DNA from: Macrocystis pyrifera
Taxonomy: Eukaryota; Sar; Phaeophyceae; Laminariales; Laminariaceae
NCBI GenBank assembly: GCA_031763025.1
Contig: JASSKH010000010.1
Coordinates: 13,347,427-13,411,426 of the forward strand
DNA: 64,000 nt
Direction of reading: 5' to 3'
Shown here: positions 46,501 to 61,125 of the stretch, piece after piece
Layout: every line of letters begins with the position of its first letter
Position numbering within the stretch: position 1 is the stretch's first letter
Program-made: the position numbers and the translations under genes
The notes under the pieces: generated by a model
What the model was told of the DNA's origin: nothing
The model's input: only the letters and a program-made list of their open reading frames with translations
Databases searched by the model: none

Positions 46501-49500
46501 TGGGTGAGCTGCATCCTACTAAGAACCGCTTGTGAGGCGGCCTTGCACATGGATGACAGCTTCAATGAGGTGATTTGCTTTACGGTGTGGCCGCTTGGGG
46601 GGGGGGGGGGGGGTACTCGATATCATGCATGGCCGTAGTCGTATGACGACTTGAAAAAGGTTTACTTATTTCATGCATGGCCGTAGTCGTATGACCATAG
46701 ATCGGAGGGTTAGGTCGGAGGGTATCCATGTTCTGCATTGCCGTAGTCGTTCGAGCGTAGACCCTCGCATCCCTGCAATCCCGCGCCGGAGCACGTCGGG
46801 TTTTCACCGACCAGACGGACACTGCTTGCACCAAGCGCGAAGCGCCGTGAGGTGTTGGGGGAATCGCGTGAAGGGTGAGCTGCGTCCTAATGGGGGGCAA
46901 CCACGTGCCACACAACAAACGGAGAAGTGCTGTTTTATTTTCATACATACCCGGTAGCGTTTAGATAGCATTCGTAGCCGTAAAAAAAAGGTGGGCAACG
47001 TGAATGGCACCATCACAGAGAGAAGAGGGCGGAAGGAAGCCACCCGTCACTGCCGGCGAAGCCGGCGGATGAAGCTGAGAGAAAAGACGACAACAACAAA
47101 AACAGCACACAAAATCAGGCGCAGGAATACCGCCCGTGGCACACTATAAAACAGTTATTTGGAGTCCCAACGATGATGCAAAAAACAGACGTACCACTTT
47201 TACTGCTTCGTAGTATCATAGCATGTCGTACGAGGTAAGATAGTAAAGACATACGCTGCCGTAAAACGGCAGAGCGGACAGAACAAAAGAAAAAAACGAA
47301 AGAAAAAAGAGGACGAACAAACGCGAAAAGCGAAGCGCACGCTCTTCTCCAAACGCGAAAAGCGCGCGCCCCCGACCCCCGGTACGCCTCCCTCACTCCT
47401 TTGCTCGGACACATTAATCTCCATGTTCGTCGTCACCGTGATCTTGATCTGCAAGTTATGGTTCCTGCATAGTGATATTTGCGTCGTCGTCATCTTGAAG
47501 TTGATCTGCTTAACAAAATATTCCTGTTACTTTCCATCCCCAATCGACGCTTCAACAAAACGATTAATTCATTATGACCACACATATCACCACATCACTT
47601 ATTTATGTCTAGAAGCAAAAAATACTGCTGCACCGGTACTCAATTTCAATCACCGCATCACTTTTTATATCTGAAAGCGAAAAATATTGCTGGACCGATG
47701 GTCAATTTTGAATGCCTTGCTCGTGTTCATCTAATATTGAATTGCGTTGAATCGTGTTCATCTTCACCGTTGTCTTCGTGCTCCGTCCTCGTCTAATTTG
47801 CCTTCGTCTCCAGCTTAGTGTTGAAATGTTGACTGCTGACCTTCGTGCGTAGTCTTTGTGCTTGTTTGATCTTGATTTGGGGTGCCTGATCTTGATCTTG
47901 ATGAATGGAGCTTCATCCTGATCTTGATGTTTGGCTTGGTCATTTATTATCGAGTGTGTTGTCTTGTTCTCTATGCTTGGTCTTAGTCTCGATGCATGAT
48001 CTTAATCTTGACGCTTTGATCTTGTATTTTTGCTCAATGTTCCTCATCGAACCTTGATCTTCAACCTTCGATGCTTGATACTTCTCCTGACACTGACGCC
48101 CAATGTCAATCTCCAAGCCTGGTCTTAATCTTGATGCTTGGTCTTTGTCAGGATGCTTGATTTTTTTTTTATCTCGATGATTGATGCTAAAGTTGGCTTG
48201 CTTGAATTTCAAACTTGATGCTTGACCTCGAGGTTGCCGAGCATCGAAGAGGCTGAGGTGTTCGAGACCAACGATGTCGTGACCTGCCCTGCGGTAAGTA
48301 CGCCGTGCTGCCGACAGAGCAAAAATGGAACGGAGGGGGTAAGGCGGTGGAGGGTGAAGGGAGGGGGGGGGGGGGGGGGGGAGGTTTTTGACTCGCCCGG
48401 AAGGCGTGCTTTAGCATATTTTTCGGAGGGGGGGGGGGGGGGTATTTCCGTCCTGTTGTTGAACCTGGCGCACCTACCAAACCTCCGCCCAAGAAGCGTG
48501 TTTGAAGGGGGGAGCGTGCGCCTGTTTTTTTGTGTTTTGTGGTATGTGCGCGAAGGGTACTGGCCAACGAGCGTAGGACATCGCGGGACTCGCTCTCTCT
48601 CTCTCGCTCTCTCTTGGTCGTGGCCGTTGGCGTTTCCTTTACCCCCCCCCCCCCCCGATGAAAAAAATATATAACTACGGCCTTGCATGATATCTACTAC
48701 CCCCCTCCCCGTCCCCCCGAAAAAAGCAACTAATCCCCTTGATGGTGGACGCATCCCACCTGGGTATACCAGCTTCACGGCTGCACGCACTGACTCACTT
48801 GACTGCTTCGGGGGGGCGGGGGGGCGTACTCATTTGCTGCTTGCCTTAATCATTTGACCATTGACCACGCATCCCTTTCGAGACGGAGCACCGTTCCTAC
48901 TCCTAATAGAGACACCTCCAACAATTGGGCGCTCATTTCGTTGTTTCTATATGTTACATAGAAACTCTTTGCTAATATTTTCCCCTTCCTGTCTGGCCAC
49001 CTGTGGCCACCATCTATCTCCTAGGATAGCAATCGTTTTCATACTGCTATTCAGTGTATCAAACTCCTCCATGTCACGTTCGTCTATTTCTGTCATTTCC
49101 TCTTCCTACACATCCCGCTCCTCCTTGTATATTTCACATTCTCCTACTATGTGAGTTCTACTCTCAATTGCTGCTGGGGGGGGGGGGGGGGTATCTCATT
49201 TTCGTATTTTCGTGTTTTGGTACCAACGGTCGGGTGTCCACGCTCCACGCCCCAAGTGTCATCCTTCCCCCTTTCCTGACGGCGCGTTTTGTTTTAAGTT
49301 TTGCGACCAACACGGTCGTGTGCGCTCCCCCGCATTTGCCTTGATTCTGCCCCGACTTCTCGTGTGTGTTTTTTTTGTCCGGTCGGGTTCGGTTTGATCC
49401 GGTACAATTCGGGTCGGTTCGGTTCGGTTCGGTCGGGTCCGGTTCGGTCCGGTTCGGCTCGGCTCGGTACGGTACGGTACGTTTGGGTACGGTACGGTTC

Positions 49501-51504: not shown

Positions 51505-54500
51505 TGTCGGACTATTGCCGCTGTCGGACTGGTTGTTGGGGGGGGGGGGGGGAGGAAGGGTCTATTCGGTGGGGGACCAGATACCCTATTTGCGGCTTCT
51601 GCGGGGCAGGCGGTTCAGCGATCGCTCCGTCGTTCCAGGTGGGCGATAGAGGTCGACTCAAGACACCGCCGCGTGCCTGCCTGCGGCCTCCGCCTCCGCC
51701 ACCGCCACCGCGGCCGCCACCGCCGCATTTTTGCGGGGTCGCGACAAGTGGGGAGTGGGTGCCGGGGGGGAGGGGGGGGGGGGGGGGGGGGGGGGGTACT
51801 CGATATCGTGTATGGCCGTAGTCATGTGACCATAAACCCTCGCATCCCTACAATGCCGGTCGGGGTCGGAGCATGCCGGGCCCGGGGGGGGGGGAGGGGT
51901 TAAATCGTCAGCTGATACGATGTGCCAGGAGACGATGGTTGTTCAGCCTCTCTGCACGGTAGACTTGATCCTTTCATCACCCTGCTACAAAAAAATTGTC
52001 ACACTAATTCCGAGTGATAGGTTGTCCCCTTGAAAAGCGTGCATGTGTAAGCGGAGTTGTATTTGCACTTTTCGATAGCGGTGGTATCACGCTTGATCAC
52101 ACACCACTCTGTCCCGAAATATACACACATTTTGTGCACTAATATTCAATAAAAATGGCTCTTTCATACCGGGACAGAGTGCTAATGTTTTAGTTAAAGA
52201 GCGACCATCGATACTGTTGCACTGCAGTGGCAAACAAACAGCCTCGGGCGCTTTCTTTTGGTGTTGGAATGAATATTGTGTTCGCACTTGTCGATGATTT
52301 TTTTTTTTGTTTCGTCCTGTTTTTTTTTTTTTTTCCCATCCCCATTATTGTCTCCGCCCTTCTTTTCTCTCTCCTTCCTACAAGTTCGTAACTCCGACCC
52401 GGGGTCACAGAGCAGGCTGTTTTTATCCCTCCTCCCCCTCTCTACCGTCGCTGGCTTGCATTTTTATCGCTAGAGAGAAGACTTCAGCCCTGCAGTAATT
52501 TCCCTCGTCGCCTAATGGCATCGAATTGTATATAGCGGTGCTATTGCCATTGCTCATAGGCACGACTATAGCACCGATACACTATTACGGGGGGGCATAT
52601 TAAGCAGGACCTACGGTACACACAAAAACCTACATATATCCCTGTTTTTACTAACAATATTTGGTCCTATTTACTATGGCCCCCCGTAATACTACTGTAT
52701 TTCGCGGGAGCATAGTAAGCCGAGCCAAAGATAGTGCGTGAACACAGGGGGTGGTACGTGTTTTCCGGGTCCATCGTGGCTTCCGAGTGCTCAGATTCAG
52801 GCCTCCCCCGTAAATAGCGATCGTGGTATTAGGAGCGACGTTCACGGGGCTATCGGCGTGGTGATGTTCAGTTTTTTTTATCCTCGTAAACAGTGCGTTT
52901 CTCTGCAACACTTGCGGTGCCCTGTTTCTCGTCGATTTCGATCCGCTGTCAACCTATAGCCCGACCTTCTAACGCCCACGAATAACTGCGCTCATCGGCG
53001 ACGTGCGATATTCGCGACACTTGATTATTATCTCGCCCACGACCCGAGGAATATGCTGTTGTTTTAGTTTGCAGTCAAGTCCACTGTGCTCATCGTGTTC
53101 CCCGTGTGGTACCCGGTAATACATATCAGGCTTAGGGTTAGGGTTGGAGTTAGGGTTTCCTGGTAGGAGTACTCGTAGGAGTTTTCAATACCGACAGGCA
53201 CCTGTCTTTTATACCCGCAAACCAACTGACCGACGGGTGGACGAACGAACGAAAGAGCGGGTGGACCCCCCCCCCCCCCGGGCGAATCGTCGTGATGCCA
53301 TCATCTTTCAGCAGAGGCCTGCTGTGATGGAGGCAGCAGCACTATTTGCCTCGTAAGGCAGTATTTACTTTTTGGCCTTATAAGGCAATGTTTCTCGCTC
53401 ACCGGACTCCTTAACCCATTGTAGGACTGCGGTCCCATTTCGGGGACTAACTACTTAGAATTTGAGAGTCTTGTCCCCAAAACGGGACGGCAGTGCTATT
53501 ACGGGGGACCATAGTAAATAGGACCAAATACTGTTATTAGTAAAACTAGGTAAATATATAGGTTTTTATGTGTACCATAGGTCCTATTAGCTATGGACCC
53601 CCGTAGTGGAGGAGTTAACCCAGCATCGTTGGGATAGCATTAACTCTACAGTGGTGTTTTGTTTTGCTATACTATTCGTGGTGTACCTATCCACTGTAGT
53701 CTCTGTTTGGGGTTGTTTTTTCCCTTGTGTGAACGTTTTGCTTTTTCTCGAAATTTTTATTTGGGTGACTTACTAATAGTGTAGAGTTCCTCTCAAGTGG
53801 GGAGCAATCGGATGCATCCCCTAGAAGGCAAAACATTCGTCGGCGATGTGTTGGCGCTACACAGCTGTAATTTTTTTTTTTCACACGGTTGTGCACCAAC
53901 CGTCCGGCTGGCGGACGAGACAACGAGGCGAACAAGACGGACGAACGAACGAGCGGACGGGCGGACGGATAGACGGATCCTCCTCCACTGGCATGTCGCG
54001 ATGCCGTGATCTGTTATCGTGTCGCGTAATGTGTTGTCATGCCGTGCCGTGCCTTGCCGTGCCATGCCATGCCATGCCGTGCCTTGCCGTGCCGTGCCAT
54101 GCCTTGGCATGCCGGTCATTCTCGTCAGACACGAGCGAGAGCAGCAGCGACGAGAAGGACAGCGACGATGACGACGACGATAGCCCCAGCAAATCTGCTC
54201 TCATGGGCCATGACGGTGGCGGCTGTGGTGGCGGTAGCAGTACAAGCACGGCCGGCGGCGGCCAGGCGAGGGCTTCAGATGGTGGTCGGCAGCGGCAGGC
54301 CAAGAGGTGAGGGCGGAGGGGGGGTACACATTTTCTGATTACCCTAGTCATTTGACCCTTGACCACGCATCCCTTTCGAGACGGAGCACCGTTGCCAAGA
54401 GGTGAGGGGGGGGGCGTACTCATTTATTGCCTGCCTTAGTCGTTTGACCATTGACCACGCATCCCTTTCGAGACGGAGCAAGAGGTGAGGGGGGAGGGTT

Positions 54501-56475
54501 AAATACAGAAAACAGAAACAGACAGGGTGGATGAAACAGACGAAACAGGCAGGGCGCGCGGTGCGGTCAATCAAGGCGCTCCTCCTCCTCCTCCTCCTCC
54601 TCCTCCTCCTCCTCCCGTTCGTTTTTTGTTTTTTTTGGGGGACGATCAGTTTCTTTTTCCATTTTGCCAACGATGTCCCTTTCTCCAGGACATTTGCGCG
54701 GTTAATAAACGCGCTCATCTTCCGTTGGTTTTTTGTTTTTGTTTTGGGCTCAATTTTTCTATTTTTCGAGCGCGGTCCCTCTTCCACGACACGAGTTTTG
54801 CGCAACTGCGCCTGCGCCTGATGCTTTGCACCTGCGCTTTGCGCCTGCGCTTATGCCCGCGCTCGCGCACGTGCCTGTGCATACACTCAGGCGAAGGTCA
54901 TCGGGGGCGGGGGGGGCGGGCGGGGACGGGGGAGGCAAGGGGCCGCAGGACAAGTTCAGCCTGGCTATGGACCGACTGCACGTGACGGCCGTGCCGAAGT
55001 CGCTGCCCTGCCGCACCGAGGAGAGGAACGTCCTGCTCAACTTCCTCAAGAGCAACATCAAGTCAGGTGCGCAAAAGCCTTGTGGAGCGCGTAGGCCCCA
55101 TTTGGTGCTGCAGTGTACACGTACCTATACTTGCACCCTGAACTCCAAGCGTTCCGTCCCCACAATAAGAGTGCAGTCCGAAATGGGTTAACACTTTTAG
55201 GAATGCAGTCCCGTGTTGGGGACCTTTCACCCTTATTCTATGTAATTTGTGTCCAAAACGGGACTGCAATCCTAAAAAGGTTGAGCCCCTTTTTTGCCAC
55301 CGCACCCCTCGTTTCGAGGCGAAAACTTTTGGAAGTTGACTACATAGAAAAAAAAAAAAAAAAAAAACTTGGGAGTTTGTAAGAAGGGTTTCCTAGCCTG
55401 GGACGGATCATCGAATCCAACTTGATGACCTGCTGTATGTATAGATCCTTCAAGCCAGATATAGCTGTTCGCGACCTTGTATGATCCACTTGCTGTAGCT
55501 CGTGTTGCCGGGCGGAAGCCGGAGTTCTCTGTATGCTCTATGTATGTATTATTGCAGCATGTTTTCCTGGGATGTGATTGACCTGTGCTGTGCACAGATC
55601 CTGCACAACCTCTCGCAGCGGCACGTATATGGCGAGGCACCCACGAGGCAGTTACATAGGAAACCCATTGCTGTCTCTGAGGGTGGCCACACCAGATATT
55701 AAATCGATTCATTGAAGCTGTCATCCATATGGAAGACAATCCGCCTCTAAAGCGGTTCTTAGTGGGATGCAGCTTACCCTTCATGCGACTCTCCCAACAC
55801 CTCACGGCGTTTCGCGCTTGGTGCAAGCAATGTCTGCCTGGTCGGTGAAAACCCGACATGCTCCGTCCCGGCATTGTAGGGATGCGAGGGTCTATGGTCA
55901 TATGACTACGGCCATGCACGATAATGAGTACACACCCCCCCCCCCTCCTCCCCCTATTATATATATTATATATGGGTTGGGCTGGCGTCGGTTGGCAGCG
56001 ACACTGTAAAACATGCCGCTCACTACGTGAGCTAGACATCCAGGGTACCGTTTGTTTTTTTTTTGGCGGTCGCCCACAACTGATCGTCGAGTTAGATCAT
56101 TTGTGCGAGGTAAAGAACCTTTACTCTGCACAAGGGAATTGATCGTATCACGTAGTGTTCAAGGTAAGGCACCCAAGAGGCAGATACACAGTACTCTCAT
56201 TGCTGTCTCTGGAAGTAGCTACACCGGAAATGAAACTAGCTCATTGAAGCTGTCATCCATATGCAAGTCCGCCTCATAAGCGGTTCTTAGTAGGATGCAG
56301 CTCACCCTTCATGCGACTCGCCGGATACCTCACGGCGCTTCGCGCTTGGTGCAAGCAATGTCTGCCTGGTCGGTGAAAACCCGACATGCTCCGTCCCGGC
56401 CTTGTAGGGATGCGAGGGTCTATGGTCATATGACTACGGCCATGCATGACATCGAGTACGTCTCTCCTATCGAGT

Positions 56476-56512
<37 letters not shown>

Positions 56513-59500
56513 ATCCTCTAAGCACTTCCAACGTAGCATCGACCAAAAACCCGCTGTCCATAGAAATGACTGGTTTTATCGGACCACGATAACAATGTGT
56601 GCACACATCCCTGAGGTACACAGCTTGTGAGATTGTGTTCCCTTCCGTCAAGAATATACATATATCTTTCATGGGGTAATATTAGAAAGAAAAAACGCAA
56701 TACGCGCGATCGAATTATCACGCACAGCTTGCTTACAAAGATTGGGCTTCGACGAAATTGTCGATCTCATCTTCACTGCTCATGCTTTGTTTTGTTTTTT
56801 CGTGTAAGGAATTGTTCTAAAAAAAGTCAGTTAGGTTGGGGTACAAGAGAGTCCGTCTCATGTTTGGGAAATCTGCGGGAAGGGGGAGGGGGGGACGGTA
56901 CCCCCCTCACCCCCTCTACCCGTGGTATGCTTGCAAACCTCACCCTCCGTCTCGAAAAAATCACGCACAGCTTGCGAAGACGGACTTGCGACGAAATCCT
57001 TAATCTCATCGTCACAGCTCATGCATTTTTTTCGTAGTTCTCAAAACAAAATTCAGTTTTTTGGGGTGGGGTTGAAGAGCTACAGTAGCTCCTGACATGG
57101 TTACAAACCTGGGGGGGGGGGGTACTCCCCTCACCCCCTCTATACCCCGTGGCATGTTGAATGTTGCAAACCCCCACCCCACTCTGCTCTGCACTGCCCT
57201 GCCCTGCCCTGCCCCGTCCCGCCTCGTCTCTTACCGCCTCGTCTCCTACCGTCTCGTTTGCCGCCGTTTTCTTTGCCTGCCTTCTTTGCCTCCCACTGCA
57301 TTGTTTGGCTTTTTGGCTATGCACGTGTACCTGGAACATGTTGGTTCATTTGCCGATGGGTTTTTGCTGTGTTGGCAGGTGGGCTGGGAAACGCCTTGTT
57401 CGTGTACGGCATGCCAGGGTCAGGAAAAACGGCGACCGCTAACGAGGTACGTGCGTATGTCGTGAGAAGAAGATAGCGCGTGCTCTATACAAGTACATGT
57501 AATATATAGCCACTCTGTCACGAATTATGGGGACGATTTCTATGCCAATATTCAATATAAGCTTCCTTATATCTAGTGACAGAGTGACGTACGACATGGG
57601 TATAGCTGCTCCGGTTGGTTTTTGTTTTGGTGTGTCAGGGTGGGTTGGTGGTAACGGCCTACCTTGAAGCCGCTACACTGGCTAACCAACCAGCTGACAC
57701 ACGGGCTGCCAGCCAGCCTAACCTATCGTATACCGCACCAAAGCACGAACGAAAGCTGAACGAACGAACGATAGGCCCTCTTTGGTCCTTGGTGCAGGCA
57801 GGATTTGTGGCAGAAGCCGGCTTTCGAACACCCCGAGTAGCGCAGACCGGCATGCTGTGAGCAATCGCGAGCAGAATCAGGGCTAGGTGGCACGAACGAA
57901 CGAAAACATGGACTGCCTTCCTACCCGACAACCAACGGCTTTCTTTCAAAAACACTGTTTTGGCGAAACTAACCAACTAACCTACAGACGTACCAGCCAA
58001 CGGATCTTACCGTACCATGACTAACAGGTACCAACCGAACGAACCAACGAACGAAGAAGACTTCAACTACCGACGTAGCAACCAAAGGCTTTCCTCGCAG
58101 CCACTGCGCTAGCGAATCATCACCTGTTCGCGCACGTACTATGACAGTAGTCCTTCCTAACGACCAAACCGAATACACATACCTGGTACGTATACACACG
58201 GTGAAGGTGATGGGCATCTTGAGGAGTCAGCACGCCCAGAGACAACTGCCCAACTTCAAGGTGGTCGAGCTGAACGGGATGAGGCTCGTCGATCCCCACC
58301 AGGTGAGCGTGTCCTCCGTGTGGTGTTTTAGACGCCATCACATACAAGGAGAGCCGTCGCGTAGCGCTGAATATCGTATCGAAAAAAAATCGATAAATTT
58401 TTACCATCGATACGATAAAACTACTCTCGCCGGGAACGTAGTCAACATTTGGTATTCATGTCATAGTCCAAACGGTTTGCTATATTCCCGTCAGAGTAGG
58501 TATCGAACTATCGATATTTTCAGGACTGTTTCACGGGCCATGACCCCCGACCCGCCGGTCGGGTCAGGAACTATTCGAAGTCTCACGGGTCGGATCGGGT
58601 CGGATCGGGTCGGATCGGGTCAGAAGATGTGTCAACTCTCACGGATCGGGTCGGGTCGGGTCATCCTTACACGACCCGACCCGAGCTGACCCGACCCGAC
58701 CGGCGATGTTTGACCCGACGCGTGAATAGCCCTTAAAATATGGGTAGTTCGGTATTATACTCTGGCCCCTTTAGACTCTGATATTGGTATGAAATGTTGA
58801 TTGTGTTCCCGGTCAGAGTAGTCTATCGTATCGAGCGTGTTTGACCCGCCACCCCCCTGGCATCCCCCACGATATTTTTTTGCGGATACTGAACCGAAGT
58901 TTCCGCACATCGAACATATAATCGATCCCTACTTCGTGATATCTATATTTCCCTTCCCTTCCCTTACGCCTTCCCTTCGCTTCCCTTCCCTTCCCTTCCT
59001 TCTCCTTCCCTTACGCCTTCCCTCCCCTCCCCTGCCCTTGCGCCGTGCTGTATTTTGTTCAATTCTGCTCTGTTACGTTTTATATCTGTGTTCTATTCTG
59101 TCTATTTTCATGTTTGGACGTACAACAAGGCGTACACCCAGCTTTGGATGGCTCTGTCCGAAGAAATTTTGCAGCCGAAGCGCGCCCTGAGCAAGCTGGA
59201 CCGTTATTTTTCCTCCAGCGACCCTTCGAGGGAGTTCCTAGTGCTGGTAGTGGACGAGCTGGACTACATGGTGAGGGGGGGGGGGGGGGGGGGGCAAGGT
59301 TGCTCTTTTTTTGCTCAGCTTTGTCGTTTGACCATTGCCCACGCATTCCTGTCGACACGGAGGGATGGAGGGCGTGTACTCATGCCATGCGTGGCCGTAG
59401 TCATACGACGATAGACCGTCGCATCCCTACAATGTCGAGACGAGGCACGTCGGGTTTTCATCCACCAGGCAGACTTTGCTTGCAGGAGGGGGGGCATGTA

Positions 59501-61125
59501 CTCGTGGATTTTTTTCTTGCCTTAGTCACTTGACCATTGACCACGCATCCCTTTCAAGACGGAGCACATCTGCTACTGCTGATATAGACATACCCAACAT
59601 TTGGGCACTCATTTTACGTTTTTTTCGGTATATCAAAACATAAAAAGAATGGCCTACGCTTATCCTCCTTCCTGGTTTGCCTTTTGAGGCGGAGAGGGGT
59701 GAGGGGACGAACACACTACCCCCCTGGGCGCAAATGCAAGCACCGCTGAGGCATACCACCATGTCCCGAAAAATAAGAAATGTTTTATTATAACAATCAA
59801 TCTAATTGATCTTTATATTCCGGGACAATGTGGGATATATGAAGCCCCAAACGATCCTTGCATTCCCATCCAGAGTTTGTACCTGATACCTGGCACGTCG
59901 TAAGGTGGCATAGCTGTGGCTAGAAACTCGCGCAAGCAAGATGTTTGTAACTGTCGTCAACTTGTGTGCGGCACCGTGACGGTCGAAGCTCCAGGCAAAA
60001 TACTCTAAAAGGGGTGCCCCTATTTTTTTTGACGCTGTCAAAAAGTAGAAAACTCGCTTTCGCATGTATGTAATTAACACTCTGAGGTGGCAGAAATACA
60101 ACGAGCGTACTTACTCGAAATTGAAGTAAAAAATATGATGATACAATTGCTTCTTTGGTAGGTACGAACTTCAACATTTTAGGAGGAAATTAGCTGTGAG
60201 ATAGATCGAGAGGGTTGCGCCGAAACTCGCCGAAAATCATCTTAACAACCTGTGCGTGATACGGGTGATACTTATGCTACGGGTTTCATAGTACGTCATG
60301 AAGGATGTATGATACTTATACAAGGGTATTCCTTATTGATGGGAACAAAATCTGACAGCTGTGGAACTCAGGTTCGGTGGGTGAAATAAATTGATGGATT
60401 TATTTCGTTGAGTTACGTGGTGTGAGAATACTTCGTTGTTTTTGTCAGGAGACGTGCATGATCCTCGAGGGGTTATCTTGCTTTCTGCATCATCAGACTA
60501 ACGAGAGCGGTGCACGTGATCCTGAAGCTCTTCGAAGCTCCATCTCAGGCATTACTGCACTAAATTTTCGTCGTCACTCAACTCGTACTTCGAAGTATAT
60601 GTAGTTTGGGTGGGGTCAGTGAGGCCTCCCTTGCTACGATCAACCGGAGGTTCTCACCCTGGTTACTACCCCCGCGTTGATTCGGTGGCAATCAACGCGC
60701 CACCTCGTCGCGGGGAGTAGGCGCTCCGGTAAAATAAACACAGGAGATGCCCTTCTTGCGTCCCCGGTTTTGGACCCAAAATTACCAGAGTGTGCGTGCA
60801 CAAAGGCCTGACCGGACTGTACTTGGTATAGCTTCGGTGATAGCATTTTATTTGTAGAAGCAGCAGCAGCAGTAGGAGCAGTAGTTCGGTCAACAACAGC
60901 AGTTAGGAGTTGCAGTAGCAGTAACAGTAGCAATAGCGGGGACTATAGGCAATGTCGACAACGGTAGCAACATGGGTAGAGAGTAGCAGTAGCAGTAGCG
61001 GCGGCAGTGGCAGTATCAGCAGGGACGACAACAGAAATAACAAGCAACAAATAACACCTACCACTACCGCTCGACGATTACTTCTACTACTACTGCTGTA
61101 GGAAGTATTGTACAGCAATAACACC

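Follow-up and report, generated by a model that had tools for sequence, protein, structure and literature searches.

How does a gene come to carry the same 5′ splice site three times in a row? In the 64,000-nt stretch of Macrocystis pyrifera DNA analysed here (hereafter the window), CAAGAGGTGAGGG, which comprises the end of an ORC1 exon and its GT donor, occurs on the plus strand at 54300, 54395 and 54479, as an earlier note on this DNA had claimed. The first two occurrences extend to CCAAGAGGTGAGGG (54300-54313 and 54395-54408), and the third is CAAGAGGTGAGGG at 54479-54491. The original donor GT lies at 54307-54308 in the first copy, and two candidate decoys lie at 54402-54403 in the second and at 54485-54486 in the third, behind which the remaining intron follows. 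The GTs thus begin one base beyond the positions of the earlier note (54306, 54401 and 54484), which are the last exon-like bases before each of them. The copies are separated by two minus-strand segments, at 54314-54394 and 54409-54478, and these proved, again as proposed, to be two truncated copies of one repeat. They match each other at 85% over 74 nt, and each consists of a poly-C tail (G-rich on the plus strand, in the first fragment to about 54324) and the 3′ end of a LINE. Their cut points differ, one falling after ...GGAGCACCGTTG and the other after ...GGAG: fragment 1 is truncated after CACCGTT(G), and fragment 2 after GACGGAG, where CA may be microhomology.

The gene was recognised from its later exons, pieces of which, once joined, matched ORC1 chains in the PDB (E=3.2e-13 to 1.9e-11), CDC6 being weaker. 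This match covers residues 4-66 of the 116 given, corresponding to two exons, one at 54891 and one near 57.4 kb; the former, an open frame at 54891-55066 (plus strand), begins the AAA+ part. The exon ahead of the triplicated donor (54129-54306, plus strand, its start placed by eye from a CAG acceptor) is an open frame encoding an acidic, serine-rich, low-complexity linker ahead of the AAA+ domain. It had no Pfam match above cut-off, and its in-frame join to 54891 makes it a probable ORC1 exon. It ends in phase 2, and donor 54307 is the sole one to join 54891 in frame, in agreement with the proposal that the gene was left with three tandem donors of which the first alone fits; reading on beyond 54306 leads immediately to a TGA. 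The two downstream donors would therefore be decoys, giving an early stop if used. Since the first donor stays adjacent to its exon, it is probably still the one at which the gene splices. Two further repeats were seen nearby: an imperfect TGCCG/TGCCA/TGCCT pentamer repeat at 54035-54123, directly ahead of the affected exon, and, in the intron that follows the next ORC1 exon, an inverted repeat at 55185-55287 (arms of 35 nt, 83% complementary, spaced by 33 nt).

We then asked what the inserted repeat is. A 20-mer of it, given in the earlier note, occurs 5,536 times without mismatch (2,818 times on one strand, 2,718 on the other) in the assembly of 537,376,219 bases and 223 contigs, against none for its reversed control, and it found no match in shuffles of the window, which rules out a chance origin. 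The 20-mer sits in the coding end of a LINE, whose frame closes with NGQMTKASNK and a stop, followed by GTACG and poly-C. Long copies of the repeat, on the strand opposite to ORC1, extend into a reverse transcriptase frame. A piece of one of them (L023) matched RVT_1 (E=1e-15) and yielded 5,146 first-look candidates in the genome; the 150 that were scored all had E<=1.4e-82 and 90-96% identity, the source copy itself being 100% identical. A nearly complete copy (L029) holds a frame of 1,137 aa with Exo_endo_phos (E=9.6e-11) and RVT_1 (E=1.6e-29), and a second frame of 257 aa, with no Pfam match, whose C-terminal end reads NGQMAKASNK-TGA-GTAC and leads directly into poly-C. No Pfam match to RNase H was found in the two frames of this one copy. 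Among the PDB matches of the reverse transcriptase are the R2 and LINE-1 ORF2 proteins (best E=9.8e-20). The two closest proteins (P0001 and P0002) both end in NGQMTKASNK and show 87% and 73% identity across the full query region; for matches named as Ectocarpus, which carry no clade name, identity is 48-76% over 21-75% of the query. Viral contigs scanned with P0001 gave no match.

Because the frame runs to TGA-GTAC-poly-C, the ORC1 repeat is coding sequence from the 3′ end of the LINE, which has hardly any 3′ UTR. It represents the outermost 3′ part of a multi-kilobase non-LTR retrotransposon (LINE) with an AP-type endonuclease and a reverse transcriptase. Truncation at the 5′ side with a constant 3′ end, as expected of non-LTR elements, was found across copies, the opposite (5′) ends varying in position. 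Two features of the RTE and RTE-X groups were also found, namely an AP endonuclease and a reverse transcriptase without RNase H (by Pfam, in L029 alone), and a very short 3′ UTR with a simple repeat, here TGA-GTAC(G)-poly-C. A longer copy of the same family, flanked by two G-runs, lies at 48810-49190 of the window (minus strand). The ORC1 event is an instructive case of a very abundant element and no unique structure. Beside the LINE, L029 has on its minus strand, from 212, an open frame of 279 aa which by eye resembles a gag-like retrotransposon protein. On the minus strand of L017, three reading frames stay open for 1,713-1,841 codons, which probably reflects a long simple or tandem repeat.

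The poly-C end was examined in two sets of copies, drawn from loci most of which had been selected for holding one. In the exact-core set, 91 records represent 90 distinct copies, and a pattern recognised the 3′ end in 76 of them, including one false end (L008) that was later excluded, leaving 75. The looser set of 29 records (288,160 bases) gave 106 ends, 96 with a supported far end, 88 of these at least 45 nt long; one B copy was counted twice among the 106, as L024 and L025 overlap, and near-duplicates (L004/L006, L005/L007, L001/L081) were removed only where identical. A tail was counted where five or more G stood in a row in the orientation of ORC1, that is, poly-C on the element strand. 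Of the 76 exact-core copies, 72 had such a run (G5+) no more than 25 nt from the 3′ end, which bears out the constant poly-C end that had been predicted for other copies, and so did 47 of the 50 LINE ends of the looser set. By eye, a G-run was also present in 13 of the 14 exact-core copies missed by the end pattern, L031 being joined to a B element instead. Tail runs had a median length of 10, with quartiles of 5 and 20 (75 copies, 7 of which scored zero by the pattern used). No T6+ within 25 nt, the mark of poly-A, was found at any of the 106 LINE and B ends, and the element therefore has no poly-A tail. Nearly all inserted LINE copies seen bear their own C-run, and for this reason we favour a run transcribed from the donor copy over one added later.

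The LINE is accompanied by a second, non-autonomous family, B, whose 3′ end is related to that of the LINE and whose common long form is about 500 nt. G5+ lay within 25 nt of 41 of the 56 B ends, and one B copy (L018, 2950-3700) scanned against Rfam had no match. B elements occur at 2567, 46351, 50746 and other places of the window, and at many of the other loci, in mixed chains with the LINE. Mostly they have a C-tail, and often a TA repeat on the far side.

What lies at the other end of the copies gives an indication of the target. The 21-nt stretch at the far end contained G6+ in 40 of 88 copies, compared with 1.2% of 8,183 background windows, and C6+ in 1 of 88. Another A or B element was found within 90 nt of the far end in 30 of the 88, and where none lay within that distance, G6+ was present in 20 of 58. 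In the window, 9 of the 37 G10+ runs lie beside an A or B end, a position for which 0.4% of strand positions would qualify. From the far-end excess and from the G10+ runs at element ends, the elements appear both to favour G-runs and to add to them. Some far-end G-runs may be tails of unrecognised elements, which would still mean insertion beside a G-run. The far-end runs would also be expected of a tail-less element inserting into existing G-runs, the run then being target sequence. We consider this very unlikely, since the tail side nonetheless carries G5+ in 39 of the 41 copies whose far flank has no G4, which indicates that the tail belongs to the element. As for runs in general, G/C compared with A/T runs of at least 12 numbered 26 vs 9 in the window and 105 vs 61 in 200 kb (20 C125 loci, 10 kb each), and those of at least 8 numbered 50 vs 53 and 173 vs 198, respectively.

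ORC1 has a second donor with an array behind it. At 59271-59278 (plus strand), the donor ATG|GTGAGGGG follows an exon encoding DELDYM, presumably a Walker-B-like motif. This exon lies outside the PDB match and is taken to be ORC1 from its order and motif. The array itself (59279-59691, minus strand) is made up of a divergent LINE fragment, a B-family fragment and a LINE fragment, the tail of each being G-rich on the plus strand. Behind it, GGTGAGGGG (59698-59706, plus strand) was noticed by eye as a possible 9-nt duplicate of the donor GTGAGGGG; the match, short and G-rich, makes this a weak candidate. The arrays at the 54307 and 59271 donors are both antisense to ORC1, as would be expected if a G-run of the sense strand served as primer.

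Does the element then target 5′ splice sites as such? Two ORC1 donors with arrays, both antisense and with the tail at GTGAGGG, speak for it, as does GTGAGG, present in 7 of the 142 flanks, including four inside the window. Against it, 5 of the 142 distinct flanks, three of which are in ORC1, had GGTGAG no further than 45 nt from the tail, six rearranged control motifs did equally well (3 to 5 of 142), and GGTAAG was found in none of the 142. With counts so close to those of the controls, in flanks unselected for genes, donors are no general target in this sample, and we regard such targeting as unlikely. The target in the sample rather looks like a G-run. A stretch with twelve letters in common with the ORC1 donor, AAGAGGTGAGGG, was also seen at L034, tens of nt before a LINE 3′ end and away from the tail.

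The duplicated AG|GT borders also recall introners, elements that make the intron in which they are found. Introner insertions have such borders, as at ORC1, in the passages of PMC9860276 that bear on them; unlike the introners described there, the ORC1 array lies inside an intron that brings separate splice sites at both of its ends. Past the array, a further 400 nt or so of intron, with no A or B end found in it, lead to an acceptor at 54890 that belongs to the intron itself, and neither outer splice site is provided by a fragment. An origin of the intron from the element thus seems extremely improbable. At ORC1, the element appears neither to constitute the intron nor to supply a splice site, and it was not assigned to the introner class.

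The earlier note had expected target duplications at other copies of the repeat as well. This was seen at individual copies but is not shown for the family. With ungapped comparison, over-extended junctions gave p=0.44 (n=79) and trimmed junctions p=0.11 (n=88), with the two ORC1 copies in the top two places in the latter. A gapped test, designed after these two non-significant ones and in part a signal of G-run against G-run, placed junctions by the reference stretch and was limited to exact-core copies whose far end lay inside that stretch with 30 nt beyond (n=41). The mean score was 5.77, compared with 4.71 for shuffled pairs, a value reached by 1 of 20,000 permutations, or by 9 of 20,000 once ORC1 was left out. 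Nine of the 41 copies exceeded the 95th percentile, where 2 were expected, and the ORC1 copies again ranked first and second. Clear single duplications were found at L051 (with ACGTGGAAGGGGGGGG at either side), L025, L014 and L027, and share the ORC1 form, in which a few mixed bases pass into a G-run; the high scores of L067, L020, L071 and L085 are mostly G-run against G-run. When G was weighted zero, the excess over shuffled pairs became smaller but persisted (28 of 20,000, and 242 of 20,000 without ORC1).

A stricter comparison was made at the same loci, with the far flank shifted 30-60 nt further on (n=39). At a G weight of 0.4, the real flanks scored higher than the shifted ones (5.68 vs 4.54, greater in 25 of 39). 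At weights of 0.1 and 0, they did not exceed this control (3.86 vs 3.96, greater in 18 of 39, and 3.57 vs 3.82, greater in 16 of 39). A duplicated stretch of mixed sequence is thus evident at ORC1 and at single copies, and is not shown for the family as a whole; a duplication of G's alone is indistinguishable from the tail.

ORC1 itself fits the anatomy of target-primed reverse transcription (TPRT) put forward in the earlier note, with poly-C in place of poly-A: target copies, truncation and C-run are all present. The element is best read as an RTE-like LINE whose poly-C end would pair with G-tracts. We consider it likely that two separate, 5′-truncated TPRT insertions of this poly-C-tailed, AP-endonuclease LINE took place at one G-rich ORC1 donor. 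The first step would be a nick in the G-run of the sense strand (AGGTGAGGG...), with whose exposed G's the terminal C-run of the LINE RNA would pair before being copied. The second strand would be cut 11-15 bp upstream, so that the exon end and donor became duplicated. With G's once more at the end of the duplicate, the site would have remained open to a second hit, hence the three copies.

The same array could be produced by a single insertion followed by tandem duplication of the donor-plus-element unit, through slippage or unequal crossing-over. The likeness of the two units (85% over 74 nt) fits such a history, as do ORC1 duplications that are clearer than those of other copies. Against it, CACCGTT is present in fragment 1 and absent from fragment 2, and the 7 and 3 differences of fragments 1 and 2 from the typed family stretch include none common to both. 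Chains of elements are moreover frequent, as shown by the 30 of 88 copies with an A or B neighbour. With different fragment ends and no differences in common, two insertions are the simpler account, and a tandem duplication is improbable. For the same features of the sequence, an assembly stutter at this array is unlikely.

How does the element compare with known systems? Usual LINE tails are poly-A or short mixed repeats. Some LINEs target microsatellites or telomeres and insert into simple repeats, as the kelp LINE does. Microsatellite- and telomere-targeting LINEs are named in PMC5035012, and poly-G is not among the targets named for them in the passages concerned. RTE-clade LINEs, as presented in parts of PMC2887409, have short simple-repeat tails, 3′-end fragments and duplications of 6-12 bp. 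Like the kelp LINE, they encode an endonuclease and a reverse transcriptase, with no RNase H, have a very short 3′ UTR of simple repeats, and left many copies cut to the 3′ end of the reverse transcriptase frame; target duplications, which accompany such copies there, are plain here at ORC1 and in single copies. They differ from it in their tails, which are di- or trinucleotide repeats and not a homopolymer of C, and in their sites, reported there without apparent sequence specificity, in contrast to the preference of the kelp LINE for G-runs. Among brown algae, RTE-X is the top LINE group by number in Ectocarpus, the kelp LINE being likewise abundant, and Ectocarpus RTEX-N1 is an abundant non-autonomous partner of about 600 bp with the LINE 3′ end, like the kelp A/B families (PMC12477816, passages on RTE-X). 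Those passages leave the 3′ tail and the target undescribed, compared with the poly-C and G-runs here, and the terms 'poly-c' and 'homopolymer' do not occur in the main text of that article. A role in nicking or priming has been proposed for the repeat at the RNA end of RTE-clade elements, in the relevant part of PMC13295347, where the target is a T-stretch plus a TA signature and not a G-run. We found no description of poly-C-tailed LINEs in a weak literature search, largely confined to the main texts of freely available papers. Relative to the RTE precedent, the combination of a C homopolymer tail with a matching G-run target is unusual.

A wider picture is quite possible, and we offer it tentatively. 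Brown algae would harbour a LINE lineage, with a non-autonomous partner, whose poly-C RNA end primes on G-tracts. Since each insertion leaves a new G-tract, insertions would seed the next targets, form tandem chains and enrich the genome in G-runs. Within genes, G-rich 5′ splice sites would be the handiest G-tracts, and copying of the donor, as at ORC1, would lengthen introns without destroying them. A C homopolymer that matches the favoured target makes a role of RNA-end and target pairing directly testable, and this match points to a selfish element that creates new landing sites for itself. Many of the G/C runs of the assembly may accordingly mark element ends, and insertion of a poly-C LINE would offer a simple route to intron growth and donor multiplication without immediate harm.
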